Of a stretch of DNA of 64,000 nucleotides, positions 8,242 through 25,633 are shown piece after piece. Under the pieces are notes generated by a model that saw only the letters and a program-made list of their open reading frames with translations, was not told the DNA's origin and made no database searches. The stretch comes from a bacterium (GTDB lineage Bacteria > Eisenbacteria > RBG-16-71-46 > CAIMUX01): contig JAUIHP010000001.1 of NCBI GenBank assembly GCA_030431975.1, forward strand, positions 124,001 through 188,000. The letters are read 5' to 3'. Made by a program: the position numbers and the translations under genes. Each line of letters begins with the position of its first letter. The first letter of the stretch is position 1.

Positions 8242-8322
8242 GGATGCCCCCTCCTTTGTCGGGCAGTACTCAGCTTACTTCCGAACTCGACGGGAGGGGT
8301 AGTCCTCTGACCGGGCTGAGTT

Positions 8323-8937
8323 CTACGGACAGTGGTTGGGCGCTACGAATGCGGGCGAGAAAATGATCAGGTCCGAGAGTGTCACGGCGCCGTCGTTGTC
8401 GTAGTCGTGGCACAGCCCACCGGACCCATCCAGAAACCCTCCCGTAAAATCGACCAGGTCACTGAGATCGACGCGACCGTCACCTGACGCGCCGTCGAAG
8501 TCGGGACTCTTGACGTTGTCGTAGTTGGCGACCGAGACTCCGTTGACTTTGATCGTGGCCGAGAGGTTCGTGTCGTGGATGCAGCCTCCGCCGGCCAGCT
8601 CGAAGTACGCCCAACCGTCATCGTCCGTTTCCGTGGTAAGGAGGATCTCCGTTGTAAGGACGGACCCCGGACACAGGTTGATTCCCGATTGCAGGACGAT
8701 CAACTCCACGGAGAATCCCGGGAGCGGTTGATTCGAAGAGTTGTGGACGAAGATCGAGAGCTGAGACGCCGGGAGCGGTTCGGGAAGGTTCGGCCCGAAC
8801 ACGAGCCCGTTGAGAGCGTCGGCGGGGTAGACCTCAGCGATCGCAACGGGAAGGTCTCCGGCATCCGCAGTGACCGACGCGCCCAGAGTTAGAAACGACG
8901 CAAGCACCCATTGGGTGACAGCAAAGAATCGATGCAT
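8323..8937 (-). CDS. Secreted protein with C-terminal dockerin-like repeats
   Basis: A 204-residue product with a signal peptide (likely cleavage near VTADA-G). The N-terminal ~110 residues look like an Ig or carbohydrate-binding-like beta domain with no family I recognise. The C terminus carries two EF-hand-like dockerin segments: D-G-A-S-G-D-G-R-V-D-L-S-D-L and D-Y-D-N-D-G-A-V-T-L-S-D-L, with the Asp/Asn calcium-ligand spacing typical of dockerin type I. Unlike most secreted proteins here it has no FlgD-like tail. ATG 8937 has GGAG 6 nt upstream; the extension to 8985 would disrupt the signal peptide. Confidence 0.75.
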   Translation of the reverse strand: MHRFFAVTQWVLASFLTLGASVTADAGDLPVAIAEVYPADALNGLVFGPNLPEPLPASQLSIFVHNSSNQPLPGFSVELIVLQSGINLCPGSVLTTEILLTTETDDDGWAYFELAGGGCIHDTNLSATIKVNGVSVANYDNVKSPDFDGASGDGRVDLSDLVDFTGGFLDGSGGLCHDYDNDGAVTLSDLIIFSPAFVAPNHCP

Positions 8938-9178
8938 ACAGTTCTCCAATCGATAGATGGAGAGAGGGTGAGGGAAGAGTACCACATCGGACTACGGTAC
9001 TCTTTCGGAGCTTTCGTCCCACTTCCTATTGCGCCATACTCCGCTTGGCGAGCCCACGCCTCCCCCCTCCACCGGGAAAGCATTGTTCATGCAGGGCGGA
9101 CGCACCATCCACGGCTACCGTTGGAGCCATTGCATGCGGAGGGATTGTGATTCGGCTCAACGACGGGAGGCTGAATCC

Positions 9179-9889
9179 ATGGAACTGTCCCATCCGATCT
9201 ATCGCCTGAAACGACAGGCGCGACTTCTTTCGAGAGAACTCGGCGTTTCCCTACACACGGCCCTGGATGAGATCGCGAAGCGCGAAGGATTCTCCAGGTG
9301 GAGTCACCTCGTGGCCAAGGCCGCAAAAACGTCTTCCAGCCGAGGGTTACTCGACAACCTGCGTCCGGGTGATCTCGCGCTTCTGGGCGGCAAGGCCGGC
9401 CACGGCAAAACAATGCTCGGATTGGAAACGGCTCTAACCGCTGTGCGAAGGAATCACGAAGCTGCGTTTTTCTCTCTGGCCTTCGGCGACGGCGAAGTTG
9501 CAGACAGCCTCGTGTCGTTGGGAGCGAACGAAGACGAACGGTCGCGACTTTGCGTCGACACGTCCGAAGAGATCAGCGCGGAGTACGTCGTACAAAAGAT
9601 GGACGCGTCCCCGCGCGGGACTCTCATTGTCATCGACTATCTTCAGGTCCTCGACCTGCGGCGGGTCAATGCAGCATTGATGTCGCAGGTGCGCCTGTTG
9701 CGCAGAGTCGCACACGAGCGCGGCTGGATCGTCCTTGTTCTTTCTCAGATCGATCGCCGAGCTGCATGGTCGGATGGACGCGGACCGAGTCTTTCTGACA
9801 TCCGCCTACCGAATCCGTTGGATCTGTCGCTCTTCAGCAAGGCCTGTTTCGTTCACGAGCGACGCTGGACGATGACCGCCGTGAATTGA
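9179..9889 (+). CDS. Small DnaB/RecA-like P-loop ATPase ('DNA helicase'-annotated family)
   Basis: A 236-residue protein with an N-terminal ~45-residue alpha-helical module (PIYRLKRQARLLSRELG ... FSRWSHL). This is the 'Glyoxalase-related' type of segment seen at the front of several bacterial proteins. A RecA/DnaB-fold domain follows. Walker A is GKAGHGKT (residues 71-78), Walker B is TLIVIDYLQVLD (Asp153), and a sensor-like LSQID lies near residue 200. It lacks the DnaB N-terminal domain and is far shorter than DnaB (~450), so it is unlikely to be the replicative helicase. ATG 9179 has GGGAGG 8 nt upstream. Its role is unknown. Confidence 0.72.
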   Translation: MELSHPIYRLKRQARLLSRELGVSLHTALDEIAKREGFSRWSHLVAKAAKTSSSRGLLDNLRPGDLALLGGKAGHGKTMLGLETALTAVRRNHEAAFFSLAFGDGEVADSLVSLGANEDERSRLCVDTSEEISAEYVVQKMDASPRGTLIVIDYLQVLDLRRVNAALMSQVRLLRRVAHERGWIVLVLSQIDRRAAWSDGRGPSLSDIRLPNPLDLSLFSKACFVHERRWTMTAVN

Positions 9890-9933
9890 TCTCGTGCTGA
9901 ATGAACCGGACTGGGTTTCCTGCCACTTGACTC

Positions 9934-9979
9934 GATGTGCGACAGATGTCACATTCATGTGTGACAACTGTCGCACATC
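9934..9979. promoter_or_regulatory. 46-bp palindrome upstream of the trypsin-like protease gene
   Basis: GATGTGCGACAG-a-TGTCACA at the left pairs with TGTGACA-a-CTGTCGCACATC at the right; 19 of the outer 20 positions of each arm match. It ends 20 nt before the TTG start at 10000. A regulator-binding operator is likely; an RNA hairpin in the leader is the alternative. Confidence 0.65.
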
Positions 9980-9999
9980 AATCGAACGAGGAGACCCAC

Positions 10000-10770
10000 T
10001 TGCCTACAAACCGTACCGCTTGGCTTCACCCGTGTTTGGCTTCCGTTCTCGGCGCTCTCGTCTGGAGCACGTCTGCACTGGGCCTCGTGACCCGACACGA
10101 TCGACCGGACTCCGAGTATCGAGCGTTGGGCGAGGGTCATCCGCAGGCCGTAGAGTTGAGCGAGAGCGGAGGTTCAGGAGCGGCGACACTCATTGCGCCT
10201 CGGTGGCTCATGACGGCAGCGCACGTTGCCGAGCACAAGGAGGTCGGTGCTTCGGTTCGGATTGGAGACCAGGAGTATCGGATTCAGTCGATCGTCCCTC
10301 ATCCCGACTACTCCCTTCGTCCTATGCAGCACGACATCGCTCTGATCGAACTGGACCGGGACGTCACCGGGGTCGAGCCCGCCGCGCTCTATGACGGCTC
10401 CGATGAACTGGGGCAGGACGTGTTGTTCGTCGGAAGCGGTAACTACGGGACGGGACGGACCGGTCCGCAAACGCGCGACAAGGTTCGGCGCGCAGCCACG
10501 AACCGGGTCAGCGACGTCGACCCGTTGTGGCTCTCTTTTCGTTTCGATCCGCCGGGAGAGGCTCTCTATCACGAAGGGATCAGTGGTCCCGGGGACTCCG
10601 GCGGCGCAGCCTTTGTGCGGACCGACTCGACCCTCTGGGTCATCGGTGTCAGCTCCTGGCAGGACACGAAGCCGACGGAACGGAATCAGGGACTCTATGG
10701 CGTCATCGAGAAGTACACGCGCGTCTCGACACACCTACCATGGATCTACTCGGTGATCGATAGTCCGTGA
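10000..10770 (+). CDS. Secreted trypsin-like serine protease
   Basis: The 256-residue protein starts with a signal peptide (core LASVLGALVW, likely cleavage near STSALG) followed by one S1 (chymotrypsin-fold) domain. The catalytic triad is His75 in TAAHV, Asp112 in QHDIALIEL and Ser200 in GPGDSGGAAF. The start is TTG 10000, with GAGGAG 6 nt upstream. The longer frame from 9937 would begin inside the palindrome and bury the signal peptide. There is no C-terminal sorting domain. The 3' end overlaps the first copy and a half of a 14-bp tandem repeat array. Confidence 0.88.
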   Translation: MPTNRTAWLHPCLASVLGALVWSTSALGLVTRHDRPDSEYRALGEGHPQAVELSESGGSGAATLIAPRWLMTAAHVAEHKEVGASVRIGDQEYRIQSIVPHPDYSLRPMQHDIALIELDRDVTGVEPAALYDGSDELGQDVLFVGSGNYGTGRTGPQTRDKVRRAATNRVSDVDPLWLSFRFDPPGEALYHEGISGPGDSGGAAFVRTDSTLWVIGVSSWQDTKPTERNQGLYGVIEKYTRVSTHLPWIYSVIDSP

Positions 10771-10848
10771 TCCATGACCGTTGATCCACGGCCCGAGATC
10801 GGTAGTCAGTGATCTATGACCGCGATCTACGACCGTGATCCGGGATCC
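10753..10848. repeat. Seven-copy 14-bp degenerate tandem repeat (GTGATCnAyGACCG)
   Basis: Units start at 10753, 10767, 10781, 10795, 10809, 10823 (12 nt) and 10835. Examples are GTGATCCATGACCG, GTGATCTATGACCG and GAGATCGGTAGTCA. Every unit contains GATC. The array spans the end of the protease gene and the space before a terminator hairpin. Confidence 0.8.
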
Positions 10849-10893
10849 GGCGATGGGGCCGGTGAGCAATAGCGCCGTCCCGAAACGGAAATG

Positions 10894-10919
10894 GGAACCG
10901 ACCCCGGAGGGTCGGTTCC
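10894..10919. terminator. Bidirectional terminator-like hairpin
   Basis: GGAACCGACCC and GGGTCGGTTCC form a perfect 11-bp stem around a 4-nt CGGA loop, between the convergent protease gene (ends 10770) and the FG-GAP protein gene (ends 10928). No T-tract follows. Confidence 0.7.
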
Positions 10920-10927
10920 TGGCCTTG

Positions 10928-12886
10928 TCACCGGACGACCAAAACTCTCTGCACCAGTTCTTCTGTTCCAGCCCGCAATCGAACGAAGTATGTGCCGGTG
11001 GCGACGGGTCGGCCTTCTTCGTCTCCACCGTCCCATTCCAGTCGATGCGAACCTGCCGCCCGCAGCGCGTCTTCGAGGCGCAAGACGGTACGCCCGGCCG
11101 GGTCGTACACCGTGGCGCGAACGCGGGCAGGTTCAGACAAGGCGTAGTTCAGTGAGGTCGTGCGCCGGAAGGGATTCGGGGCCATCGCGGAAGCCTGCAG
11201 CTTGCGTGCGAACTCGTCGTCTCCCTGCACAGAAGCCGGATCATTGTTTTCAACGGCGATTTCCCTGAGCACGGGCGAGGTTCCGTTTGAGAGTGTCTCC
11301 ATAGATACTCGGTACTGGAGGTATCGAGCTGTCGGATCGATGAGCGTCCCCAGATCCGTACCGTTCGAGGGAACCGTGACATAGTTTCCGAGTGCCTCGG
11401 GATCGGTCCCGGCGCGAACTTCGATCTCGAGCGAAGTGCCGGAGGGTACATCGGCGTCCCAGATGAGCGTTCCCCAGGATGGAGTGCCTCCATCAAGAAC
11501 AGAGCTTTCGAGTTCACCGAGAGGCAGGAAGTCCGTCAACGTGTAGGCCGCGATTTGGATTCCCTGTCCGTAGCTGTCTTCGAAACTCGCCACGAGCTCG
11601 GGTTTCCCGTCCCGGTCGATGTCGCCAACTGCGGCCCAGGGATGACTCGGCGCCGAGATGTCCGGGTAGCGAAGCTCCCAGCTGGTGCCGTTTCCGAGGT
11701 TCTCGGCCCACCCGAGCTTGCTGAACGTCGTCCCGTTGGCACCGGAAGCAACGCCGTCCAAGTCGCCGTCTCCGTCAACGTCTGCCAGTGCGGTGTTGTA
11801 TCCACGCGTGAAGGAACCCACGATGGAAGCCGACCAGTTGAGACCCGTTCCATCGTTCAGCCACGCCGCCATCACACCCGTGTTCAGGCCACCGCCGAAT
11901 ATGTCGATGTCACCGTCGTCATCCAAGTCCCCAACATCCATGTAGCCGGCGCCCTGGAACACGGGACTGATAATGTGTTGCGTCCAGTTCTCACCGGTCC
12001 CGTTCAGGTTTTCAAACCACTCGAAACGGCCGTAGCCCGCGACCAGCAAGTCGACGTCGAGATCTCCATCCATGTCGACTGTATGAATTACGAAGGCGTT
12101 GTCGAAGTCGTCCGATACGTCGTGCTGGTTCCAGGTCTCGCCCTGCCCATCGACATTTTCGAACCAAACGACGAACGCATCTGCTTCGTAGGGTCCACCG
12201 ACCAATTCAGAGCAGCCGGCCAGATCGAGATCGCCGTCCCCGTCGATGTCGGCCGCGCTTACCCAGCGCGCGCCCCAGAAGAGTTCTCCGATTTCCCGCT
12301 GTTCCCAAGCACCACCTTCGCCGTCCAGGTTCTCGAACCAGGCGAATCGGCCGTTCCTCTGCTCGGGCGGGGGCGGAGGAGGATCGATCATCCCGTAGTA
12401 CGCCGACGCGATGATGTCGAGGTCGCCGTCGAAGTCCATGTCCACGGCATCGACGTACCAACTTCCGAGGAAGTCTTCGGTCACGCTCGTGCGTGTCCAC
12501 TCCCCGTCCAACTGGCGCCAGAGGTAAATCGCGCCCCGCTGGTCGTCCGGGTCGAACGGAGAAATGAGCGGGTCGGGAATAAGAATGTCATCGTAGCCGT
12601 CTCCGTCGATGTCGTAGACGGCCAGGCGGGCCGGACGGTCGGAGTCCGGCGTGATGACCTCGGAGGGAAACGAAATCCTGGACACCGAGGACAGGGAGAC
12701 CTGCCCTGGAGACGTCAGCCAAGCCAGGTTGCCGTCGTCGAAGCGGTTACCAAACGAGAGTACGGGTCCCGGTTGTCCATCTCCCCCGGACCAGTCTGAT
12801 TGGGTTTGGGTCGCGCTCATCACAGGGGTCGCGGCCATCGCGAGGACGATCGCGGACGCGGAGGCCAGCAGCGTGCGGCTCATCAT
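10928..12886 (-). CDS. Secreted FG-GAP/VCBS repeat protein with FlgD-like C-terminal domain
   Basis: A 652-residue exported protein. After the signal peptide (LLASASAIVLAMAATPVMSA) come at least eight repeats with the core D-[IVM]-D-G-D-G/D-x-D-[IL]. Examples are DIDGDGYDDIL, DMDFDGDLDII, DIDGDGDLDLAG, DLDDDGDIDIFG and DVDGDGDLDGVAS, which is the calcium-binding FG-GAP/VCBS propeller pattern. The last ~85 residues are the FlgD-like module (YALSEPARVRATVYDPAGR, W-D-G-G-D-E-E-G-R, ATGTYFVRL, ending RVLVVR). ATG 12886 is preceded by AGGAGG with 6 nt spacing. A cell-surface or extracellular role is inferred; the binding partner is unknown. It is divergent from the HAF protein gene. Confidence 0.88.
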   Translation of the reverse strand: MMSRTLLASASAIVLAMAATPVMSATQTQSDWSGGDGQPGPVLSFGNRFDDGNLAWLTSPGQVSLSSVSRISFPSEVITPDSDRPARLAVYDIDGDGYDDILIPDPLISPFDPDDQRGAIYLWRQLDGEWTRTSVTEDFLGSWYVDAVDMDFDGDLDIIASAYYGMIDPPPPPPEQRNGRFAWFENLDGEGGAWEQREIGELFWGARWVSAADIDGDGDLDLAGCSELVGGPYEADAFVVWFENVDGQGETWNQHDVSDDFDNAFVIHTVDMDGDLDVDLLVAGYGRFEWFENLNGTGENWTQHIISPVFQGAGYMDVGDLDDDGDIDIFGGGLNTGVMAAWLNDGTGLNWSASIVGSFTRGYNTALADVDGDGDLDGVASGANGTTFSKLGWAENLGNGTSWELRYPDISAPSHPWAAVGDIDRDGKPELVASFEDSYGQGIQIAAYTLTDFLPLGELESSVLDGGTPSWGTLIWDADVPSGTSLEIEVRAGTDPEALGNYVTVPSNGTDLGTLIDPTARYLQYRVSMETLSNGTSPVLREIAVENNDPASVQGDDEFARKLQASAMAPNPFRRTTSLNYALSEPARVRATVYDPAGRTVLRLEDALRAAGSHRLEWDGGDEEGRPVATGTYFVRLRAGTEELVQRVLVVR

Positions 12887-12930
12887 AAGGTTCCTCCTGC
12901 AGGGGTACATACTTTCGTCGACGAACCCCT

Positions 12931-12990
12931 GTACCCAACCATAACCCAGCTGTGACGATTTCCTGTCACACTGGGACCCTGCTTGGGTAC
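12931..12990. promoter_or_regulatory. 60-bp nested inverted repeat between divergent secreted-protein genes
   Basis: Outer arms are GTACCCAA (12931-12938) and TTGGGTAC (12983-12990). Inner arms are CCCAG-c-TGTGAC (12945-12956) and GTCACA-CTGGG (12965-12975). It sits between divergent starts at 12886 and 13036, where a shared operator would be expected. The TGTGAC/GTCACA core recalls the TGTCACA/TGTGACA boxes of the 9934-9979 palindrome. Confidence 0.6.
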
Positions 12991-13035
12991 GGTGAACCAG
13001 GCTTCACCCAAGAGTTTCCCGACAGGAGTTTCCGC

Positions 13036-14370
13036 ATGGCGCCGACACGTTTCCTGCCTTCTCTGCCCTCTCTCACCCTGCTCCTCACGACGCCTGCGCT
13101 TGCGCAGGACTTCGACGTCCTCGATCTTGGTGCTTCCGGAAGCCAGAACCAGACTTGGTCCATCAGCAATTCCGGCCACGTCGCCGGCTACGCCGCCTTT
13201 GGCGCCACGACCGAAGGCTTCGTCTACGTCGACGGCCAGGTCGAGTATGTCGGCATTCCGGCCGGTACTTCGCGGTCGGACATGCTGGGCATCAACGACG
13301 TGGGAAGTGCCGTGGGCAAGTCCGGCCTGACGTTCGAAGATGGTCAGGCCATTCTCTGGCAGCCCGGCGAACCGCTGCAGAGTTTGGGAACCTTGGGCGG
13401 AAGCCGGTCGGCGGGAATCGCCATCAACAACATGGACCAAATCGTCGGCTGGTCCGATCTGACCGGCGACGAGGAATCCCGCCCGTTCCTCTACGAAGAC
13501 GGGATGATGGCCGCACTCCCGATTCTGGGTGGGACGCAAGGGCAGGCCACCTGGATCAACGACTCCGGTCAGATCGTCGGCACGACAACAACAGACACAG
13601 ACGGTTTGCAGCAATTCGCCGTGCTCTGGGACGGAGGGGATCCGGTTCGTCTGCCTCCCTTCCACGCCGGCCAGAACAATCTGGTGGACTACATTCACAA
13701 CAACGGGGATATCGCGGGCAGCGTTCGCATTCCGGACGAGATCAACGGCGGGTTCAAGCGTCGCGCCGCGATCTGGCGGGACGGAGAGATCCATCAGATT
13801 CTGGGAACGTTGGCCGACGGCAGCGGCGCCGAGCCTTTCGCCCTGAGCTGGGCGTCGGGAATCAACAGCAGCGGCGAGATCGTAGGAATGTCCGTCAATG
13901 CGGCGAGTTCGCTGGTCCCCTTTCTCTATCGAGACGGCGAGATGATTCAGTTGGACGAACTCATGCCCGACGGTTGGATCGCGGACTTCATCGGATCCGG
14001 GGCGATCAATGATGCCGGCCAGATCACGGTCAGCGGGTTCATGCCGCAGGGCACACGCCGAGCGTTGCTCCTGACCCCGAACACTTCTGCAGTCGAAGGC
14101 CCGGAACACCGCCGGGAACTCAACGTGTTTGCCACAGGTTCGCGCATCCTCTACTCGATCGAGGAGCCGGCTCCCGTCTCGGTCGAACTCTTCGACCTGC
14201 GTGGAAGTCGTGTAGCCACGGTGGAAAAGGGATGGCGTGAGGCCGGGACGCATGAAGTCGAGTGGATGGAAAGAGACGCCAACGGCCGCTCTGCGGCGTC
14301 AGGGGTCTACTTTGCCCGCGTGAAGACTCCGAATCATCAGGGCACAGCCCGGATCTTCGTCGTCCGATAA
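13036..14370 (+). CDS. Secreted HAF-repeat protein with FlgD-like C-terminal domain
   Basis: A 444-residue protein. The signal peptide ends ...TTPALA, leaving Gln as the predicted first mature residue (QDFDVLDLG). The body contains repeated HAF-type units (W-x-I-N-x-S-G-x-I-V-G, LGTLGGSRSAGIAIN, GQATWINDSGQIVGTT, WASGINSSGEIVGMS) characteristic of extracellular HAF repeat proteins of unknown function. The last ~80 residues form the FlgD-like module (VELFDLRGSRVA, EWMERDANGRSAASGVYFAR, ending RIFVVR). ATG 13036 has AGGAG 7 nt upstream. It is divergent from the FG-GAP gene across a large inverted repeat. Confidence 0.88.
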   Translation: MAPTRFLPSLPSLTLLLTTPALAQDFDVLDLGASGSQNQTWSISNSGHVAGYAAFGATTEGFVYVDGQVEYVGIPAGTSRSDMLGINDVGSAVGKSGLTFEDGQAILWQPGEPLQSLGTLGGSRSAGIAINNMDQIVGWSDLTGDEESRPFLYEDGMMAALPILGGTQGQATWINDSGQIVGTTTTDTDGLQQFAVLWDGGDPVRLPPFHAGQNNLVDYIHNNGDIAGSVRIPDEINGGFKRRAAIWRDGEIHQILGTLADGSGAEPFALSWASGINSSGEIVGMSVNAASSLVPFLYRDGEMIQLDELMPDGWIADFIGSGAINDAGQITVSGFMPQGTRRALLLTPNTSAVEGPEHRRELNVFATGSRILYSIEEPAPVSVELFDLRGSRVATVEKGWREAGTHEVEWMERDANGRSAASGVYFARVKTPNHQGTARIFVVR

Positions 14371-14438
14371 CGATCAGACGGCCAGTTCCGCCGTGGACTC
14401 CGAAGGCGGCCGGTGCCGGCGACGGAGTCTATCGCGCC

Positions 14439-15707
14439 TTAGTCGGCGATCCGAACGACTCGTACCGATTCGTTGAATCCCCGGCCGCTCGCCCGCACGA
14501 AGTAGACGCCGGATGCGCTCGGTCGATTCGCATCGTCCAAGCCGTCCCAGGAGAAGGAGTGCACTCCCGGGTCCAGCCTCTGTGCCTCTGTGATGGATCG
14601 AACGAGACGTCCGTCCGCAGAGACGACATGGATGGACAGATCCGTCTCGACGCTCAGCTGCAGTTGGAACGTGGTCCCTTCCGCAAAGGGTGAGGGGAAG
14701 CATGTAAGCGCGGCGATTCCGTTTCCACTGTTCGCCGTGACCTCGGCAGCAGCAGGCTTTGGATGCTCGAAGAAGTAATCCACCAATTCTTCCCTGAAGG
14801 ATGAATTGAAACTTGGAGAGTGCGAGCCGTCGAGGATCGTCCAGAGTTCGCCCGAACCGGAAGCATCACATCCGTCCTCGTACTTCGTGACGATGGTCTC
14901 GGCCCCCGAAAGAGAGTTGACGAGATCGAGTGGCGGCGAACTCGTATCGGGAGTCAGAGAACACCCCCCGACTCCGGCCCAGTACTCCACCGACTCGACT
15001 GCACTCGGATATGTGTTCCCAAAGATGTTGCCGCCGTCGTAGAAGATGACGTTGTCGGCCGTCCCGTGGATCTGCAGTACGTGAACGGACGATCCGGGAT
15101 TGCACTGGATCGGGTCGTCCCAAACCGCTCCCGCCAGACTGGCAATCGCGGCCACGGTTTCCGGGTGGTCACAGGCCATGCGGTGGGACATGAAGCCTCC
15201 GTTGCTGTGACCGCAGAAGTAGACCCGGTCCGGATCGACATCCACCTGACTGCTGATCTCCGTGATGAGATCGAGAAGGTACTGAGAGTCGTCGACGGTC
15301 GAGCCGAAGAAGTTGCAACACGCGTCGGTCGCATTCCAGAATCGGTTGCCGTTGTTGTCGATCGTTCCTTCCGGGTGAACGACGAAGAAGCCTCTGGATT
15401 CCGCGATCGTCGGAAGCTGCCAGTAGGACTGCATGGAGGCTCCATTGCCTCCGTAGCCGTGCAGGGCGAGAACCAGGGGAAGCGGAGCGCCGGGCTCGTA
15501 GGAACTGGGGACGGTCACGGTCAAGGGTCCGCGACCGAGATCGACAATGATGTCTTCGGCCAGAGCCGTGCGCGCTTCGCTCGCGACGATCAGACAGGCC
15601 AAGAACGCCGAGACGGCGGCGGCAGCGAAAATGTGTCCGTGGGTCGGGGTCGGGGTCGGAACGGCGGCCGGGGTCGGGACCAGGGTCGAGAGCTTTGCAC
15701 TATTCAT
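14439..15707 (-). CDS. Secreted PHB-depolymerase/LpqC-like esterase with FlgD-like C-terminal domain
   Basis: A 422-residue alpha/beta hydrolase. A Thr/Pro-rich N-terminal stretch precedes the signal-peptide core (FAAAAVSAFLACLIV; likely cleavage ALA-E near residue 50). The esterase domain (~53-325) shows the oxyanion HG motif LALHGYGGNG (~80-89), nucleophile Ser168 in CGHSNGG, and QIHGTADNV near the acid/histidine region. LpqC-type enzymes hydrolyse polyhydroxybutyrate or feruloyl esters; the substrate here is not determined. Residues ~335-422 are the FlgD-like module (FSWDGLDDANRPSASGVYFVR, ending VRIAD). No clear Shine-Dalgarno precedes the ATG at 15707; a longer start at 15752 is possible but less like a signal peptide. 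Confidence 0.85.
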   Translation of the reverse strand: MNSAKLSTLVPTPAAVPTPTPTHGHIFAAAAVSAFLACLIVASEARTALAEDIIVDLGRGPLTVTVPSSYEPGAPLPLVLALHGYGGNGASMQSYWQLPTIAESRGFFVVHPEGTIDNNGNRFWNATDACCNFFGSTVDDSQYLLDLITEISSQVDVDPDRVYFCGHSNGGFMSHRMACDHPETVAAIASLAGAVWDDPIQCNPGSSVHVLQIHGTADNVIFYDGGNIFGNTYPSAVESVEYWAGVGGCSLTPDTSSPPLDLVNSLSGAETIVTKYEDGCDASGSGELWTILDGSHSPSFNSSFREELVDYFFEHPKPAAAEVTANSGNGIAALTCFPSPFAEGTTFQLQLSVETDLSIHVVSADGRLVRSITEAQRLDPGVHSFSWDGLDDANRPSASGVYFVRASGRGFNESVRVVRIAD

Positions 15708-15960
15708 CAGACGATGATGCCACAGGGCAGCCGCCGAAACGAGGCCGTCCACTCCGAAGCCTGCCGGAAATACCCCATTCCCACTCGGCGGCGGGCAGCA
15801 GTCTTCGCCGTCACGTGGTCTCCCATGCCCCCTTCGCCTCCGGGCTTCGGATTAGGTTTCTCTGACAAGTCCGCTGGTGCTAGCCTTGATTCCTCCGTTG
15901 GCGCTCGGATTCCTCTCACCCGACGCTTTCGCTACCGGGATATCTCGTGGGAGGTCTTTC
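15708..15960. other. Divergent intergenic region without recognised feature
   Basis: This 253-bp space separates the leftward esterase gene from the rightward LVIVD gene and must hold both promoters. I see no convincing -35/-10 pair, repeat or small gene. Confidence 0.4.
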
Positions 15961-18057
15961 ATGTCTCGCCGTGGTCTCGCTTCGTCCCTGCCCATATGGC
16001 TGATGCTTCCGGCGGCCGCACTTGCCGATTGTGACGCCACCGGTGACCACATACGTTGGGTGGATGGATTCAACTACCTGTCCTATTCCCCGGGCTACGG
16101 GTACACAGGATTCGTAGACGCCGCAATCCGGGTCGGCGATGCGGTCGTAATCAGCGTCGGCGACCAGGAGTCAGTGCTCAGCTTCGAGGTCTTGTCCGAC
16201 GGCCAACTGGAGCCGGCCGACTCCCTACCCATGGATGTCTCGACTCGACTCGTCGAGGCCGGCAACGACGTGGTCTGCGGAAGCAGCGACGATGAAATCG
16301 CGGTGATCTCTCTCGACAACGATGCGAACATGACGGTCTCGGGCACAGTGCCCCTTCCCGCGGCGAATCTCGTTGCGAACGGCGACTACCTCTACGCCTC
16401 GAATACGACTGGGTTCTATGTGATCGACGTGTCGGATCCAGTCCAGCCGACGGTAGTCGGCCAAGCCACAGGGCCTGTTGGTCAACTGGCCGCGGAGGGA
16501 GAGCGAGCCTACGTTCTCACAACCTCCGAGATGTGGTCGGTAGATGTTTCCGACCCCACAAGCCCGAGCTTCGTGCAGAGCTTTCACCCCAGTGCGTTTC
16601 GGGACAGGATCCAGGCGAAGGACGGCTATCTGTACGCAGCCAACCGATCAGAGGGCCTTGAGGTCTTCGACCTGTCGAGTCCGGATCTTCCTGAACTTGA
16701 AACGACGATTCCTGTCGACAACGCGCACTCACTCGTTCTCGGTGACGATCATCTCCTCTGCAACGGTCGGCTCTTCGACCTTTCCACGCCGGGAGCTCCG
16801 ATTCCACTAGGGGCCGTGGGTGGAATCGGTGGTGACATCGAAAACGGATACGTGTACGTCGCCGCGGGTGGAGAGGGGCTGCAGGTTTTCGCTATCGGTG
16901 CGGGAACCAATCCGGAGCCCGTGGCTAGCTGGGACGACGGGTCGCAGGCAATGGACCTCATCCCGCTAGGCGACTATCTCGTCTACCAGACGTTCACAAG
17001 CATCGATGTGCTGGACGTCTCGGATCCCCTGAATCCAAGCTTCATCACGTCCATGCAGATCTCGAGCAAGGACATGGTTCATCAGGACGGTTACCTCTAC
17101 GTTGCCGGCGCTGACGGGTTCACGGTTGTCGACGTTTCGAATCCGGCGTCGCCCAGTGTGGTCGGATCACTAACAGGATGGAACATCGAGCTCGCCGCGA
17201 TCTCCGGAACTCGGCTCTATGGCGCCACCATCGATGGAGTCCTGATCCTCGATGCTTCCGTGCCGGGCTCCCCCACTTTGTTGGGTGGTTTTCCCCTCCC
17301 AGACGTCCGTAGTCTCGCGGCGAGAGGGACCGATCTCTACGTCGTGACGGACTTCGAGGGAAACGGTGACGTCTACCGCGTAGATTGCTCGGATCCCGGT
17401 TGGGTGTTCTTCGACGCATCCTATGGCGGTGGGGCCGGAGGACAGGTTCGCTGCGACGATACCTATGTTTATGTCTCGGGCCGCGAAGGAATCGCCCAGC
17501 TCGATCCGGAGACTTTGGACATCATGTCGCTCGTCGGGGAACGCTCCTTCGCGACCAGGGATCTCGTTCTTGGTTCCAATGGAAAGGTCTACGGCCTGAC
17601 CTCCTCCGACCTTCACGGCTTCAAGTCGTCGCCGACGTTGGAGTATGCGTTCGGCGGCCCGGCGAATGTCGGAGCAGCCTACGGAATGGCCGAGGTGGAA
17701 GGGTTCCTCTATGTATCCGGCTTCTCGCGCCTGAATATCTTCGATCCATCCTGCGCTCCCTCCGACGTGGAGACCGAAGCCGGCTCGCGTCGAGAGCTTC
17801 GACTGACGGCCGCACCCAACCCGAGTTCCGGCGCGGTTCGCTTTCACTTTGAGAGGGAGGTCGGAAGGAGTTCACACCTCGAGTTGTTCGACTCGAGCGG
17901 CCGTATCCTTGCGTCCATCGAAGTCTCGGATGAGAGTTCGCAGATTCAGTGGGACGGTCGGGACGATCACGGAAGGGTCGTACCGACAGGTGTGATCTTC
18001 GCAAGACTGAAGACGCCCCAAGGGACCGCGTCGGGAACCGTTCGGATCGTTCGCTAG
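15961..18057 (+). CDS. Secreted LVIVD-repeat propeller protein with FlgD-like C-terminal domain
   Basis: A 698-residue protein with a signal peptide ending AALA-DCD. It carries many repeats of the LVIVD type: Y-L-Y-[AV]-x-N/G ... [GA]-[FL]-x-V-[IVF]-D-[VL]-S-[DN/S]-P. Examples are YASNTTGFYVIDVSDPVQP, MWSVDVSDPTSPSF, LEVFDLSSPDLPEL and FTVVDVSNPASPSVVG. Such repeats form surface beta-propellers. The final ~85 residues are the FlgD-like module (APNPSSGAVRFHFE, QWDGRDDHGRVVPTGVIFAR, ending TVRIVR). ATG 15961 has GGGAGG 6 nt upstream. It is immediately upstream of the C25-like operon (19 nt gap), so co-transcription is plausible. Confidence 0.88.
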   Translation: MSRRGLASSLPIWLMLPAAALADCDATGDHIRWVDGFNYLSYSPGYGYTGFVDAAIRVGDAVVISVGDQESVLSFEVLSDGQLEPADSLPMDVSTRLVEAGNDVVCGSSDDEIAVISLDNDANMTVSGTVPLPAANLVANGDYLYASNTTGFYVIDVSDPVQPTVVGQATGPVGQLAAEGERAYVLTTSEMWSVDVSDPTSPSFVQSFHPSAFRDRIQAKDGYLYAANRSEGLEVFDLSSPDLPELETTIPVDNAHSLVLGDDHLLCNGRLFDLSTPGAPIPLGAVGGIGGDIENGYVYVAAGGEGLQVFAIGAGTNPEPVASWDDGSQAMDLIPLGDYLVYQTFTSIDVLDVSDPLNPSFITSMQISSKDMVHQDGYLYVAGADGFTVVDVSNPASPSVVGSLTGWNIELAAISGTRLYGATIDGVLILDASVPGSPTLLGGFPLPDVRSLAARGTDLYVVTDFEGNGDVYRVDCSDPGWVFFDASYGGGAGGQVRCDDTYVYVSGREGIAQLDPETLDIMSLVGERSFATRDLVLGSNGKVYGLTSSDLHGFKSSPTLEYAFGGPANVGAAYGMAEVEGFLYVSGFSRLNIFDPSCAPSDVETEAGSRRELRLTAAPNPSSGAVRFHFEREVGRSSHLELFDSSGRILASIEVSDESSQIQWDGRDDHGRVVPTGVIFARLKTPQGTASGTVRIVR

Positions 18058-18076
18058 AGACTGCTGGAATCTATCG

Positions 18077-18511
18077 ATGCTGATGAGGTCTCAACTGTAT
18101 CCCGGGTTGGTCGCGGCGTGCGCGGCACTTTGCTTTTCCTGCTTCCAAGCCGTTGCCGAGTTCAGAGTGCAGTCCCTCGAGGGATCGCCCGATGGCCTGC
18201 GGGTCGAGTTTCGAACCGCAGAATCACCCGGCACAACTGCATCGAGTCCGGAGAGTGGTCCGATACCGAAAACAGTCTGGATCGCTCTCCCCCCGGGCTC
18301 CGCGCCGACGATCCGTCGTGATGGGTTCGAGGGGCATCTGGTCCCTGAACTCAGTGACGATTCGCCACAGACAGGAACGACGGTTGGCGAACTCGTCCTG
18401 GACATCCCCTGGGAATCGGTTCCGATCGATGGATGGGAGGCCGGCACGCCAACCTGGATGCGGGATCAGTTGGTGTGTTCCGCTGACCGTTTGGTCGTCG
18501 TCGAAGCCTGA
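18077..18511 (+). pseudogene. N-terminal part of C25-peptidase-like protein (frame ends at TGA)
   Basis: The 144-residue frame supplies what the long downstream frame lacks: a signal peptide (LYPGLVAACAALCFSCFQAVA, cleavage before EFRVQ) and the start of a gingipain-propeptide-like region (SPDGLRVEFRT ... PKTVWIALPPGSAPTI). It ends ...DRLVVVEA at TGA 18509-18511. Reading on in the +1 frame from 18510 gives EAQSPLVQRYERMTFSVDFR and continues to 22160. Before this point the long frame is Arg/Ser-rich nonsense typical of a wrong frame. The two pieces are therefore one gene split by a one-base shift (mutation, sequencing error or, less likely, programmed frameshift). Confidence 0.75.
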
Positions 18512-21500
18512 AGCGCAATCTCCGCTCGTCCAACGCTACGAACGGATGACTTTTTCTGTAGACTTTCGATCCTCAGACAGCCCCGTGTCCTCAGGACTGC
18601 AGTCGAATTCCGAAACCAACCTGGACTCGGAACTCGAGTCCCTCTACGAGTCCGCCTTAATCAATTACGAGCAGGGACGCGCGTGGCGGGTTCCACCTCA
18701 TCTCAGATCGAATTCCGAGGCGGAGTTCCGTTCCACAGAGCTGCTCGCGCACGGTCGCGGACAGACCCCGTGGGTCAAGGTCTTCGTTTCCAGTGAAGGT
18801 CTCTACGAAATCACCGGAAGCGACTTGGAACAGCTTGGGGCCTCGTTGGAAGGCATCGATCCAAACCGGTTGCGACTCTTCCTCCCACCGCTGTTTCCGT
18901 TGGATGAGTCGTCGAGCGTGTTCGATGAGCAGCCGGCCATGACTGAGATCGGGATCCTTGTCGAGACGGGCGACGACGGAGTCTTCGACCCCACTGACCG
19001 TATCGTTTTCGCCGGGCGCGGGCCGGACGATTGGTACTCACTCTCGGGAGAGCCACCGCAGAACGATGAGCGTTACTACCGCGACCCGTATACCAACGAG
19101 AGAGTGTACTGGCTCACCTGGAGTGCCATGCCGGGTGAGAGTCCGCGACGCATGACCATCCTCGACGGCACGCAGATCGACGCACCACTCCAGAACTTGG
19201 TTCGGGATCGCGTTCACCTGGAGGGCAACGGGGTCTACAACTCCCGCCCCCATTCCGATGGGCTGGTCCGCGAGCTGTTCTTTTGGCGTGAGCTCACGAC
19301 CACCGAGATCGCGGATGAGTCGCAGCGCGTCTCCTTTCAACTCCCGCAAGTAGATCCGGATGAGCCGGTGTCGATCCACGCCAGGTTCTTCGGCGGAAAC
19401 AACCCCATGAGTCGTTCGAGCGACCCGCCGCCGGATCATGTTCTACGCCTGGAGTTGAACGGCCACGAGATCGGGACCAAGGAGTGGGAATCGCGAGACG
19501 TCCAGGACTTCCTCGGCGAAGGCCTCCTCCTTCTGAAGGGAAGAGATCAGGCCTTCGAAATGACCGGCATCTCCTTGCCCGACGACACGATCAGTCGCCT
19601 CGACATCGTTCTCCTGGCCTGGATCGAGCTGTCCTACGGCCGGCAGCTGGTGGCCGTCAACGACACTCTCAGCTTCTTCGCCGAAGGGGAAACCGGTCCG
19701 ACGGCCTTTGCTGTTGAGATGTCGACGGAAGAAGAACCGTTCGTCGTGGATGTCACCGATCCCGCAGCGCCCGTTCGCATCCTTCCGGCATCTTCTCTCG
19801 CGGGAGAGACGCCCTTCATTCGGTTCCAGACGAACGTCGGAAGCACCGATGCCCATCGGTTCCTCGTTCGACCGATTGAGGGCCTGGCGCGCCCCAAGCT
19901 CCGGCTGGATGCATTGCCGTCGATCGGACCGTTGCGGGATCGCACGGTGGCGACGGACATGATCGTCGTCTACCACGGTGAGTTTGCGGCCCCTGCCGAA
20001 GATCTGGCCCGGCACCGCGAGTCGCGACTGCCCTCCGGATCCGGAGAAGTGATCGCCGTGGATATCGAGGACATCCGCGATGAGTTTTCCTTCGGACGTT
20101 CCGACCCGACCGGATTGCGCCACTTCCTCGAGTTTGCCCGCGCGCGCTGGAACGGAGGGGACGGCGAGGGACCGGCCTATGTTCTGCTGGTCGGCGACGC
20201 CAACTTCGACGAACGAAACTTCCTCGGTGCGGATGAACGAAACTGGTTGCCGACCTATGCCGGCTACTACGACCTGTTGTTCCTCGATACCGGCATTGCA
20301 GACATACGTGTGCCCTCGGACGACTACTTCGTGCTGTTGGAGGGGCCGGAGGACGAGGCCATCGATATGGCCATCGGGCGGCTCCCTGCCCAAACGCCCG
20401 GGCAGGCACGCGACATGGTCGACAAGATCATCGACTACGAAACCGGACGGCCGACCGGGAACTGGATCAATCGCGCTGTGATGGTAGCGGACGATCTCTG
20501 CCAAGGAACTTCTCGGGACATCCTCGGTGGGCTGTTCGTTCGTGACGCCGAGAGGCTTGTCGGTGAACTGCCCGGCAGCCTCTTTCACGACCGGCTCTAT
20601 CTCGTTGAGTACGGGATCGAATGTGACCGGGCGTCCAAGCCCGACGCGGCCGCCGATCTCCTCCGCAAGCTGAACGAAGGCGCTCTCCTCTTCAACTACG
20701 TCGGCCGGGGCGGTAGGACCCAGCTTGCCGATGAACGGGTCTTTGGGTCGGGCTCCGTTCCGTTCCTGGGGAACGTCGGCCGTCCCTTCTTCTTTGCGGC
20801 CTGGTCGAGCCACGTATCCGAGTTTCACAGGGGAACGGAAAGCCTGTCCGAGGCTGTACTCCGCCATCCCGACGGCGGCGCCGTAGCTACAGTGGGAAAC
20901 TCTTGGATCGGATTCGTCGGTGACAATGCAAGTCGGTCCCGGAGTTTCTGGAATGCAGTGTTTCCCGAACATCGAACTGCGAGCCCTGGATCGATTGGCG
21001 CCTCACTTGCCGCAGCCAAGATGGGAAGTCTCTCACGAGCCGTTCGGAGCTATCAGCTGCTCGGTGACCCGGCGATGGTCCTTCCGGTTCCGTCACGCCA
21101 AGTCCAATCGCAAGTCTTGGTGGCAGGGAGCGAAGAGTCTGCCGATTCGCTCTACGCGGGGCAGATTCATGATGTCAGAGGAAGCGTGTACGATCCGAAT
21201 GGAAGCATCGATACTTCGTTCGAGGGCTTCATCGAGATCGAAGTCTTCGACGCGGGCTCCAAGTTTGAACTCGGAGATACCTACATAGAGAGCTACTTCG
21301 TCGATGGAGACCCGATCTATCGAGGGCGGGCGCCCGTCCACGCCGGCCGGTTCGAAACTCGTTTCGCAGCTCCGGCGGAACTCTATGACGGCGAGCGCGG
21401 CGTAGCACATCTCAGAGCCTTCGCCACAGCAACCGACGCAGGCGACGTCGCGGCAGGGTCCGACTCCCTGTGGGTCTCGGACGCAGACGCTCCCCCTAGT

Positions 21501-22160
21501 GAAGACATGGAGGGACCGGCCGTCACGATCAGCATCGAAGAAGGCGAGGCGGTACTCGCTGAATCGTCCGTGGAGTTTCACTTCGAGGACGAATCCGGAA
21601 TCGACATTACCGGAGCCTCGGATTCACGCCGAGTATGGCTCGAGCTACGCGCGGAAACCGACAGCACGTTGGTCTTCGATCTCACCGACGCTCTGTCCGC
21701 AGAAGACGACTACCGTATGGCTCATGCGATGTGGAGCCTGCCCCCAGGACTCGAATCCGGCCTGGTCTATGAGATCCACGTCCGTGTTTCGGACAATCAG
21801 GGAAACGCTTCTACGTTCCGACGCAGCTTTCGGATCGTAGACACGCTGAACTCCGGCGCAGACCTGTCCGGAGTCTTCAACTTCCCCAACCCGATGACGG
21901 ACGGGACCGGTTTCCACGGCACGATTTCCCAGTCGGCAGAGGTGGAGGTACGGATCTACTCGATACGCGGCCGCGAGATCGTTCGACTCGGACCCAAACG
22001 GTGGACGCCGACTCAGCTTCGTGAAGAGGGGATTCCCTGGGACGGTCGGGACAAGGACGGCGATCGGCTTGGAAACGGCGTTTTCTTCTACCGGATGGAC
22101 GCGAGATTCGATGACGGCCGGGAGGAAAGCGTCATCGAGCGACTGGCGGTGCTGCGATAG
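18510..22160 (+). CDS. C25 (gingipain/PorU-like) peptidase homologue, catalytic residues apparently lost; FlgD-like C-terminal domain
   Basis: The ~1,217-residue main part of the frameshifted gene; the first in-frame ATG is 18546. The order is propeptide-like beta region, caspase/gingipain-fold C25 domain (~19960-21100), beta domains and a FlgD-like tail (FNFPNPMTDGTGFHG, WDGRDKDGDRLGNGVFFYR, ending LAVLR). C25 landmarks are YVLLVGDANFDERNF, IDMAIGRLPAQT, LLFNYVGRGGRTQLADE, SLSEAVLRHPDGGAVATVGNSW and RSYQLLGDPAMVL. In active members the motif is NYxGHGG; here the His codon is CGG (Arg, 20706-20708). The usual Cys, before x4-F in FFFAAWSSHVSEF, appears to be Ser (AGC, 20808-20810). A catalytically inert surface protein is therefore likely. 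It heads an operon with the three following genes. Confidence 0.8.
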   Translation, partial: EAQSPLVQRYERMTFSVDFRSSDSPVSSGLQSNSETNLDSELESLYESALINYEQGRAWRVPPHLRSNSEAEFRSTELLAHGRGQTPWVKVFVSSEGLYEITGSDLEQLGASLEGIDPNRLRLFLPPLFPLDESSSVFDEQPAMTEIGILVETGDDGVFDPTDRIVFAGRGPDDWYSLSGEPPQNDERYYRDPYTNERVYWLTWSAMPGESPRRMTILDGTQIDAPLQNLVRDRVHLEGNGVYNSRPHSDGLVRELFFWRELTTTEIADESQRVSFQLPQVDPDEPVSIHARFFGGNNPMSRSSDPPPDHVLRLELNGHEIGTKEWESRDVQDFLGEGLLLLKGRDQAFEMTGISLPDDTISRLDIVLLAWIELSYGRQLVAVNDTLSFFAEGETGPTAFAVEMSTEEEPFVVDVTDPAAPVRILPASSLAGETPFIRFQTNVGSTDAHRFLVRPIEGLARPKLRLDALPSIGPLRDRTVATDMIVVYHGEFAAPAEDLARHRESRLPSGSGEVIAVDIEDIRDEFSFGRSDPTGLRHFLEFARARWNGGDGEGPAYVLLVGDANFDERNFLGADERNWLPTYAGYYDLLFLDTGIADIRVPSDDYFVLLEGPEDEAIDMAIGRLPAQTPGQARDMVDKIIDYETGRPTGNWINRAVMVADDLCQGTSRDILGGLFVRDAERLVGELPGSLFHDRLYLVEYGIECDRASKPDAAADLLRKLNEGALLFNYVGRGGRTQLADERVFGSGSVPFLGNVGRPFFFAAWSSHVSEFHRGTESLSEAVLRHPDGGAVATVGNSWIGFVGDNASRSRSFWNAVFPEHRTASPGSIGASLAAAKMGSLSRAVRSYQLLGDPAMVLPVPSRQVQSQVLVAGSEESADSLYAGQIHDVRGSVYDPNGSIDTSFEGFIEIEVFDAGSKFELGDTYIESYFVDGDPIYRGRAPVHAGRFETRFAAPAELYDGERGVAHLRAFATATDAGDVAAGSDSLWVSDADAPPSEDMEGPAVTISIEEGEAVLAESSVEFHFEDESGIDITGASDSRRVWLELRAETDSTLVFDLTDALSAEDDYRMAHAMWSLPPGLESGLVYEIHVRVSDNQGNASTFRRSFRIVDTLNSGADLSGVFNFPNPMTDGTGFHGTISQSAEVEVRIYSIRGREIVRLGPKRWTPTQLREEGIPWDGRDKDGDRLGNGVFFYRMDARFDDGREESVIERLAVLR

Positions 22161-22223
22161 AGCGCAGCGACAAAGTAGGGTAGAATCTAATCTCAACGAC
22201 AGGCACCTTGAGGATGACACCCA

Positions 22224-22967
22224 ATGAGACATCACTGTCCTCTTCTGACTCGCCCGCGAATCTCTGCCGGCCTTCTGGCTTTCGCCACACTCGCCCTCAA
22301 TCACGTTGCGGCGATCGCCTACGACGTTGAGCCGGGCTCGACCGGAAACACGATCGTACTTCAGCTCGACGATCGGTCCGGAGTTCTCGCGGGGCAACTG
22401 CTCGATATCGAAGTTTCGGCCTCGACCGAATGGATCGAAGTCGTTGAAACCACGGTTCTTGAAGGTCTGGTTCAGGAGATCGAGGTCACCTTCGCGGTCG
22501 ACCGGGTCGCCACCGGCTCCACGGGATACCTGGAGGTGGTTGCCAACGCGAGTTCAGCGGGCATTGCTTTGCGCCGGACCATCCCTCTCGAAGTGGCCCT
22601 GGGGGTCGCTGACGAACAGCGTTCCTTCGCCATCGACGAGTGTTGTCTTGCGTCCTCAGGACTCGACCCGATCGATCCGTCGACCACAGGCCCGGCGCTA
22701 CTCGGAAACACGCCGAACCCGGTCACTTCTCTGACCGACATTGTGTTCGACCTTGGAGTCTCCGGCGGAACGGCTTCTTTGCGTGTGCACAATGTCGAAG
22801 GTCGTTTGCTTCGCACCATCGAGACACCTCCGCTTTCGGCTGGCGTCCACCGGATCAGTTGGGACAGTCGGGACGACAGCGGACGGGATCTTCCCTCCGG
22901 CGTGTATTTCTACACGGTGTCCTCCGGCGACTGGTCCGAGACTCGAAAGATTCAGCTGCTGCGATGA
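22224..22967 (+). CDS. Secreted protein with FlgD-like C-terminal domain, otherwise unrecognised
   Basis: A 247-residue exported protein. A signal peptide (ISAGLLAFATLALNHVAAIA, likely cleavage before YDVEPG) is followed by ~120 residues of a beta-rich, possibly cohesin- or Ig-like domain (V-L-A-G-Q-L-L-D-I-E-V-S-A-S-T-E-W-I) with no family I can name. Residues ~160-247 are the FlgD-like module: GNTPNPVTSLTDIVFDL, LRVHNVEGRLLRTI, SWDSRDDSGRDLPSGVYFY, ending KIQLLR. It begins 63 nt after the C25-like gene and its TGA overlaps the next ATG (ATGA), so it belongs to the same operon. The cysteine pair DECCLASSG in the linker is unusual. Confidence 0.8.
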   Translation: MRHHCPLLTRPRISAGLLAFATLALNHVAAIAYDVEPGSTGNTIVLQLDDRSGVLAGQLLDIEVSASTEWIEVVETTVLEGLVQEIEVTFAVDRVATGSTGYLEVVANASSAGIALRRTIPLEVALGVADEQRSFAIDECCLASSGLDPIDPSTTGPALLGNTPNPVTSLTDIVFDLGVSGGTASLRVHNVEGRLLRTIETPPLSAGVHRISWDSRDDSGRDLPSGVYFYTVSSGDWSETRKIQLLR

Positions 22968-25633
22968 GGAATACGACACACAAATCACTGGCTGGGATCG
23001 CATCCCTCGTTGTCCTGGTCGCGATGTCATCAGCAACACCGACGCTTTCCAATCCTGACGCGCCTCGTTCGACCCGTATCGTCGAACCGCTTGTCGTCGG
23101 TGGCCAGAGTTGCACCATTCAGATTCTTGCGGAAGCCGTCGTTTGCGAGGGCGAAGAAACGCCGTTCGTAGCGGAACTCGTCTGCGCGGACGGCCTTCTG
23201 CTCGTCAACGATCCGGAGTGGCTCCTCGACGGAGAACCTGTCGGCTCGGGCGACCAGATCCAGCTCGAACTCACCGCTGGAGAGCATCTCGTCGAGGTCT
23301 CGTGCGGATCTTGTCAGGACCAAATCCTGGTCGAGGCCGTCGACTGCTCCATGCAACCGAAACTGGATGCCGTCTACTCCGATGACCAAACGGAAGCGGA
23401 TCCGGGAATCTTCCTCGCGGCCAACATCGCCCCGGTCAACGGCCTCACCTTCGGCCATCTTCGGTATGCCATGCGGCCCTTTACGCTGGCCGCGGATTCC
23501 AGCGTTGCAGATGGGACCTACACGCTCACCGTCGAGGGTGACCCGATTCTCGAACTCTATGAAGAGTCGGGGGCATCGATCTCTCTGCCTGCTGCTTACG
23601 ATCGGTCTGAGCTCCCCGTAACGTTTCTGGTCAATGCAACGACGCTTGGCGAAGCTGATTTGGTAGCCACGCGGAGCGAGAACGCGACGACGGGTAGCCC
23701 AACGGAGGATCGCGTCAGAGTGCGCGTCGGACCCTGGCCCGGACTTTCGGGACGGGAACTGTCGGCCCACCCGCACTTCCTGTTTGCGAACACGTTCAAT
23801 GACGATGACGTCATGACGGCAGCAATCGACCCGTCCCGACACGCCGAGCGCATCGGATTGACCTACGATGCCTATGTTGTGGCCCAGCGGCCTGCAAGTG
23901 CCTGGGCTCTCGGCGGCACCCTCGTCGACGTGACCGGCGGAGCCGAAGCCATGACGGTTCAGGCGGGATCCATCGGGGACAACATCACCGAACTCTGGTC
24001 TTCGGGACTCGATGCCGGCGACCGCCTGAGTCGCGACTACGCCATCGTCTTCGACTTCGGCCAGGACGGCAGATTCGACCCGGGTGACCTGATCGACGGC
24101 TTCTCCTACTCGGAAGCGGGCACCCACGTCGTGGCCGATCTCTCACAACCCGGACCGTACGACGTGTCGGTGGAAACCTACTCCGGAGGAGGTTTCCTTA
24201 CCCAGGTGCTCTACTATCCCAGTTCCATCGAACAACTGGGAGCCGTACCCCTGGTTGTCGTCAGTCACGGAAACGGGCACGCCTACACCTGGTACGAGTA
24301 TCTCGGCAACCATTTCGCGTCCCACGGTTACGTTCTGATGTCTCATCGAAACAACACCGTTCCCGGCATAGAGACTGCATCGACGACGACCCTCACGAAC
24401 ACGGACTATCTCCTCGGTAACCTCGACACCATTGCGGGTGGAGTCCTCGATGGCCACATCGACGAGAGCGCGTTGACTTGGATTGGGCACAGTCGAGGTG
24501 GAGAGGGTGTCGTCCGAGCCTACGATCGGGTGCTGGAAGACCCGGGACTCGTGACCCACTTTTCCGCGGAGGACATCGCACTGGTGGGGAGTATCGCTCC
24601 GACCGCGTTTCTCCCCTCGGACGAATCGGATCCGCACGAGGTCGACTACTTCCTCATCGGCGCCGAGGCCGACGGTGACGTCTCCGGTCGACCCAACTGC
24701 ACGCAGTGCCAGTACTTCCGGCTCAGTGACCGCGCTCAGGGAAAGGTCCAGACGCTCTACGTCCACGGGGCCGCCCACAACGACTTCAACTGCTGTGGGA
24801 ATGATGACGGCACGGGACCGAATCAGATTGGCCGAGCCGAGAGCCAGGTCATCGCGAAGAGCTATCTCCTAGCACTGGTCGAGTACTACATCCAAGGCAA
24901 CGAAGCCACGAAGGAGTACTTCACGCGGATGTACGATGACCTCAGCCCTTCCGGAATCGATGCGAGTGTCGAGATTTCGACCTCGTACCGCGAGCTCGGC
25001 ACACCGTCCAACCTCGTCATTGATGACTTTCAGAGTGCCGGCTCGACAGGACAGAGTAGCTCTGGGGGAACGGTGACGCTCGACGTCTCAAACGTCTTTG
25101 AGGGATTCAACGAAGACAACGACACGTCGTTCACACCGACGACGACGGATCCAATGAATGGAATGATCTACCATTCCGGGCAGGGTGACTTTACGAAAGG
25201 CCTCATCTTCGATCACTCGACGGATTCGGCTCGTTTCCTCGAGTTCGAAGTCGTGCCGGAGTTCCGCGACTTTCGCTTTCATCAGTACCTCTCGTTCCGT
25301 GCCTGCCAGGGGACACGTCATGAGGAAACGCGCGCACTGAACGGACCGCACTCATTCGGTGTCACGCTTCGGGACGCTTCCGGACAAACCAGCACCGTGC
25401 GTTTCGGGGCCTGGGGAGAATTGACGCAGCTCTACCCAAGAACGGGATACGGAAGCTTCACCGGATGGGTCAACGAGATGAATACCGTGCGCATTCCCCT
25501 CGCCACGTTCGAGATGGATGGAACCGGAATCGACCTCTCCGACATCGTGGCCATCCGGTTCGAGTTCGGGTCGGATTTCGGCGCGGAGCGGGGACGGATC
25601 GGGATCGACGATATCCAGGTAATGAAGGAGTAG
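22964..25633 (+). CDS. Secreted alpha/beta hydrolase (PET-hydrolase / PAF-acetylhydrolase-like) with extra beta domains
   Basis: An 889-residue protein with a signal peptide (GIASLVVLVAMSSA) and an N-terminal cysteine-containing Ig-like region (~45-130). A second beta region precedes the hydrolase domain at ~400-670. Hydrolase motifs are LVVVSHGNGHAYTWYEYLGNHFASHGYVL, nucleophile Ser510 in WIGHSRGGEG, and a likely catalytic His in YVHGAAHNDF. This layout resembles dienelactone-hydrolase or chlorophyllase/PETase-like enzymes; the substrate is unknown. The C-terminal ~210 residues (FQSAGSTGQSS ... GRIGIDDIQVMKE) look like a CBM11/galactose-binding-like beta domain, replacing the FlgD-like tail. 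The ATG overlaps the upstream stop (ATGA) and the next gene starts 2 nt after its stop. Confidence 0.8.
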   Translation: MRNTTHKSLAGIASLVVLVAMSSATPTLSNPDAPRSTRIVEPLVVGGQSCTIQILAEAVVCEGEETPFVAELVCADGLLLVNDPEWLLDGEPVGSGDQIQLELTAGEHLVEVSCGSCQDQILVEAVDCSMQPKLDAVYSDDQTEADPGIFLAANIAPVNGLTFGHLRYAMRPFTLAADSSVADGTYTLTVEGDPILELYEESGASISLPAAYDRSELPVTFLVNATTLGEADLVATRSENATTGSPTEDRVRVRVGPWPGLSGRELSAHPHFLFANTFNDDDVMTAAIDPSRHAERIGLTYDAYVVAQRPASAWALGGTLVDVTGGAEAMTVQAGSIGDNITELWSSGLDAGDRLSRDYAIVFDFGQDGRFDPGDLIDGFSYSEAGTHVVADLSQPGPYDVSVETYSGGGFLTQVLYYPSSIEQLGAVPLVVVSHGNGHAYTWYEYLGNHFASHGYVLMSHRNNTVPGIETASTTTLTNTDYLLGNLDTIAGGVLDGHIDESALTWIGHSRGGEGVVRAYDRVLEDPGLVTHFSAEDIALVGSIAPTAFLPSDESDPHEVDYFLIGAEADGDVSGRPNCTQCQYFRLSDRAQGKVQTLYVHGAAHNDFNCCGNDDGTGPNQIGRAESQVIAKSYLLALVEYYIQGNEATKEYFTRMYDDLSPSGIDASVEISTSYRELGTPSNLVIDDFQSAGSTGQSSSGGTVTLDVSNVFEGFNEDNDTSFTPTTTDPMNGMIYHSGQGDFTKGLIFDHSTDSARFLEFEVVPEFRDFRFHQYLSFRACQGTRHEETRALNGPHSFGVTLRDASGQTSTVRFGAWGELTQLYPRTGYGSFTGWVNEMNTVRIPLATFEMDGTGIDLSDIVAIRFEFGSDFGAERGRIGIDDIQVMKE

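Follow-up and report, generated by a model that had tools for sequence, protein, structure and literature searches.

The closest described counterpart of the gene analyzed here is PorU of Porphyromonas gingivalis (PG0026; PDB 6za2; NCBIfam model NF033707), a C25-family C-terminal signal peptidase and sortase of the type IX secretion system (T9SS), which trims secreted cargo and anchors it at the surface. There PorU is complexed with PorV, PorQ and PorZ (PMC5562754); it retains its own CTD (PMC5445135, PMC5121618) and carries a conserved sortase-type arginine, Arg722 (PMC4560394). PorU lacking its nucleophile is known from the engineered C690A variant of P. gingivalis (PMC5562754, PMC5121618, PMC4560394), in which cleavage is abolished (PMC4560394) and cargo accumulates bound to PorV (PMC5562754). 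Pseudopeptidases, duplicated peptidases that have lost catalysis and kept their fold, have been reviewed for metallopeptidases (PMC11266112), and the T9SS-dependent M6-like inactivated metalloprotease (NF052323) provides a precedent, by annotation, of a T9SS-associated peptidase that has lost its activity. A literature search for a C25/PorU pseudopeptidase found no case in the papers searched.

The window, a stretch of 64,000 nucleotides from a bacterial genome of the Eisenbacteria lineage (GCA_030431975.1, contig JAUIHP010000001.1, positions 124,001 to 188,000), contains a gene that resembles P. gingivalis PorU in its full-length architecture, its C25 domain, its PorU-type C terminus and a model score above the cut-off. 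It differs from that PorU in lacking the catalytic histidine and cysteine, in lying away from porV, in being frameshifted, and in being a second copy in a genome that also encodes an intact PorU. The C690A protein is a laboratory mutant of a sole copy, whereas the window copy is natural, has lost both residues and coexists with an active copy. As a C25/PorU protein, it also falls outside the metallopeptidase scope of the review, and the M6-like protein belongs to an unrelated peptidase family.

Gene structure and family assignment

The main open frame (18513..22160, + strand) comprises 1,215 codons and encodes the PorU-type body, which matches PDB 6za2 (E 2.6e-47) and the T9SS sortase PorU equivalog NF033707 (456.1 bits, cut-off 420, model positions 5–1094 of 1095). 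The C25 catalytic-type domain (about 19959..21083, + strand) matches Pfam PF01364 over its full length (1–374 of 374; E 1.2e-66, 226 bits, cut-off 23), with further profile matches to 6za2, 1cvr and 4tkx. The C-terminal region (21861..22157, + strand) is a T9SS-type CTD or FlgD-Ig-like tail of the PorU kind; the NF033707 match extends through it to the last model position but one, and it aligns with the PorU C terminus, with a TIGR04183 score of 15.7 bits that is under the cut-off of 23. These matches identify the gene product as a C25 protein of the PorU type, a T9SS sortase by family, and bear out both the C25/PorU homology and the export-type C terminus proposed in the first-pass annotation. 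A scan of the genome contig collection for relatives returned one distant Bacteroidetes sequence only, and a scan of viral contigs returned none. An AlphaFold2 model of the C25 domain, built from the window copy and one distant relative, was discarded (mean pLDDT 33); because the prediction was too poor, the fold was checked by sequence alone.

The gene begins outside the interval 18510–22160 originally assigned to it, at ATG 18077, in a frame that differs from that of the main body. This N-terminal part (18077..18511, + strand, frame 2), defined by alignment with the N-termini of PorU orthologs, encodes a Sec-type signal peptide, MLMRSQLYPGLVAACAALCFSCFQAVA/EF, with the probable cleavage site marked by the slash, followed by PorU N-terminal sequence (TVWIALPPGS; GTPTWMRDQLV against GDPTWMRNQRVV). 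Frame 2 stops at TGA 18509–18511, and a one-base shift within 18482..18512 (+ strand), outside any homopolymer, leads from frame 2 to frame 0. The open sequence after the frameshift, first put at about 1.2 kb, is in fact 3.65 kb, or 1,215 codons. Over about 1,360 codons this shift is the only lesion and, as assembled, it leaves the signal peptide out of frame with the PorU body.

Assembly indels were checked by scanning codon-pair frames over 464 kb of this contig; of 66 synthetic deletions, the scan detected 53. Among the 77 same-strand frame switches returned, nearly all have a start codon where the frames meet, and all seven that were translated look like neighboring genes; thus, indel errors appear to be rare in this contig. 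The window gene itself was not flagged by the scan because its short N-terminal part gives a weak score. As assembled, one frameshift severs the window copy from its signal peptide; either the disruption is recent or the assembly contains an error here.

Catalytic dyad and active-site surroundings

Alignments to relatives show that the catalytic histidine of the GHG motif is replaced by arginine (CGG, 20706..20708, motif NYVGRGG) and the catalytic cysteine by serine (AGC, 20808..20810, segment AAWSSHVSEF), both on the + strand. The cysteine column holds Ser 20808, not Ser 20805, the relatives reading TASCSVGK where the window copy reads AAWSSHVSE. In a class-wide C25 alignment, all 45 other domains covering both columns, which come nearly all from the same class with one Bacteroidetes sequence from outside it, retain His and Cys, and the Arg/Ser combination occurs in the window copy only; no other dead dyad, and no second genome carrying one, was found in this alignment. 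Alignment to characterized C25 peptidases, the check proposed with the first-pass annotation, places the same columns on the GHG histidine and catalytic cysteine of PorU (6za2) and gingipain R (1cvr) by profile. Both substitutions are present at the codons where that annotation had placed them.

Five more columns near the active-site motifs (20535..20939, + strand), invariant in 12 relatives, have changed in the window copy (H20535F, A20802W, G20817S, A20898N and N20937S), and away from these sites the C25 domain retains its aspartate and glycine motifs. The sole two cysteines of the domain (20499 and 20622; 20499..20624, + strand) are separated from the catalytic column by a long stretch of sequence. 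An alternative cysteine nucleophile was dropped as a candidate, as both match extra cysteines of active relatives. The sortase-type arginine expected about 32 residues after the cysteine is missing in the window copy and likewise in the aligned active class members; it is therefore not diagnostic in this class, and its absence was dropped as a sign of inactivity. We conclude that the window copy, judged from these alignments, is catalytically dead. Since NF033707 accepts this dead-dyad protein (456 vs 420 bits), annotation does not require the catalytic residues to be present, and model-based annotation would label the window copy an active sortase despite the loss of both.

Paralogy and the order of events

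The source genome (G000) contains four C25 genes. One of these, on contig C15, is the resident PorU, with an intact dyad and 539.7 bits to NF033707. Its locus is ordered accA, a 465-aa protein, PorU, a TPR protein, then a barrel of the PorV family and an M6-like inactive metallopeptidase that is a partial match to NF052323 (186 bits vs a cut-off of 600); the part from the 465-aa protein to the metallopeptidase (L069) occupies 1070-13849 on the - strand. Within the reach of their contigs, both other members of the family have the same order. The window copy is not beside porV, the conserved locus with the porV-family gene being occupied by the C15 copy, and it is about 40% identical to the resident PorU and to the porU-locus copies of the family members. 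In the tree, it lies inside the family on a long branch, diverging before the split between the C15 copy and the G002 copies, with moderate support (93/90). For groups named after the first tree had been seen, the AU test rejected a sister relationship between the window and C15 copies (p 0.0245); sisterhood with the second copy of G002 was also rejected (p 0.0002), and grouping with the G001 copy or the G001 remnant was not. The window copy is thus an old PorU paralog, not the resident PorU of the genome.

Second PorU copies occur in both other family members. G002 has two PorU-type genes (C504 and C514+C463, the latter being the syntenic copy), both with intact dyads. G001 has a remnant gene (L070, contig C21, about 5304-6460, - strand) in which a deletion of about 1,000 residues has removed the C25 domain and brought the N-terminal 85 aa up against the C-terminal 288 aa, which are in a different frame. 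Second copies are therefore tolerated and sometimes lost. Synteny of the window locus, approached through an outer-membrane efflux neighbor, was uninformative, as this neighbor has no close relative in the family.

The branch leading to the window copy is 1.3–1.4 changes per site long, and its main frame has zero stops in 1,215 codons. In simulations of unconstrained evolution, which use a simple substitution model and assume no selection on the overlapping antisense frame, the first stop (95% point) arose after 0.048–0.074 amino-acid changes per codon; both catalytic codons were replaced before the first stop in 0.15% of simulations (P 0.0015), and both together with two further active-site positions in 0 of 4,000. 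Given the open frame, a branch far beyond the neutral limit and the low probability of dyad loss, the loss of catalysis falls in a period when selection still acted on the frame. Loss of catalysis thus preceded any decay, and the reading frame was apparently maintained after it. Of 109 otherwise invariant columns, 89 are kept; those lost make up 6 of 15 in the cysteine-holding segment vs 14 of 94 elsewhere (Fisher p 0.03, post hoc). Synonymous codon bias is normal, at the 38th percentile among the long frames of the genome. Relative-rate tests show the window copy changing 1.4–1.6 times faster than the resident copy, as in relaxed selection, and constraint on it was therefore weaker. dN/dS was unusable because synonymous sites are saturated (pairwise dS about 1.4–1.9).

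By sequence, the window copy combines a kept fold with lost catalytic residues, as a pseudopeptidase does; of the marks of a pseudogene it bears one frameshift, in a gene with 1,215 otherwise open codons and normal codon bias. The first-pass suggestion of a retained surface pseudo-peptidase is supported insofar as fold and frame seem to have outlasted catalysis (zero stops, 89 of 109 columns, normal codon bias), but a surface protein working today is not supported: the signal peptide lies in another frame, no aligned relative has the inactive form, and the extra copy of G001 is a wreck without its catalytic domain. That annotation would have given way to orthologs with an intact dyad and decay of this copy; the orthologs do have the dyad, but decay alone is insufficient to account for its loss here.

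Proposed explanation and its alternatives

Our preferred explanation, to which we assign a probability of roughly two in three, is that the window gene is an old second PorU paralog that lost its sortase/peptidase chemistry while fold and frame were selected, giving a pseudo-sortase, and that the frameshift is recent or an assembly error. The changes of His to Arg, of Cys to Ser and of neighboring active-site residues would have accrued with fold and frame still selected. If made, the protein would be exported through Sec and then the T9SS via its own CTD, might reside at the surface on one of several PorV-family barrels, and may bind cargo CTDs but leave them uncleaved, acting as a cargo holder or a competitor of active PorU. 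Since the C690A mutant accumulates PorV-bound cargo and PorU keeps its own CTD, a natural dead paralog could bind cargo CTDs and hold them intact. The proposal that the paralog is kept today beside active PorU, to receive or anchor T9SS cargo signals with no cleavage, is a tentative one that we consider improbable as it stands; more likely, such a binding role was once held and is now broken or breaking. Retention and decay then form a sequence in time, the copy having been kept long as a pseudoenzyme and perhaps now dying.

Within the preferred explanation, the sub-case that the frameshift is an assembly error and the pseudo-sortase is fully working today is possible but less favored. The presence of just one lesion over about 1,360 codons and the intact, normally biased frame downstream agree with it, but indel errors look rare across the 464 kb scanned and the site is not a homopolymer. 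We regard it as unlikely that the gene is just a duplicate in ordinary decay, with a second PorU having become superfluous and both dead dyad and frameshift reflecting decay only. The frameshift, the faster evolution, the plain wreck in G001 with about 1,000 residues deleted and the lack of other dead-dyad copies in the C25 alignment all fit such a duplicate; its difficulties are the 1,215 codons without a stop, where neutrality would allow about 0.05–0.07 changes per codon vs 1.3–1.4 on the branch, the P of 0.0015 for replacing both catalytic codons before the first stop, and the normal codon bias.

Residual peptidase activity, through a serine nucleophile or another nucleophile/base pair, is highly improbable. 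A serine occupies the nucleophile position and His20811 adjoins it, but the base histidine is an arginine, the only two cysteines left in the domain match non-catalytic cysteines of active relatives, flanking motif residues are replaced too, and the change of Cys690 to Ala abolishes cleavage in P. gingivalis PorU (PMC4560394). There is similarly little to recommend programmed +1 frameshifting at GCC-TGA as a means of joining the two frames: the junction does have a TGA and +1 is the direction needed, but the compared PorU relatives cross this point in one frame. Moreover, a shift from GCC to CCT entails poor re-pairing of the P-site tRNA.

Should the inactive form prove to be retained in relatives, the pseudo-sortase would parallel, in nature, the PorU C690A mutant and offer a means to separate PorU cargo binding from PorU chemistry; should the gene instead be no more than a dying copy, it would urge caution in annotation and in tallies of secretion-system components.

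The source genome has one SprA_N match and eight PorV-family genes above the model cut-off, which suggests several shuttle barrels in its T9SS. The window copy stands alone among FlgD-Ig-tailed cargo-type genes. A neighboring LVIVD beta-propeller was dropped as a PorZ partner, with 52 LVIVD matches in the genome and none to the PorZ model. The surrounding region (10928-25633) is a run of secreted-type genes, including FG-GAP, HAF-repeat, PHB-depolymerase-like esterase and LVIVD propeller proteins, with FlgD-Ig/T9SS-like tails, and the same run contains a PETase-like hydrolase (22970-25633).
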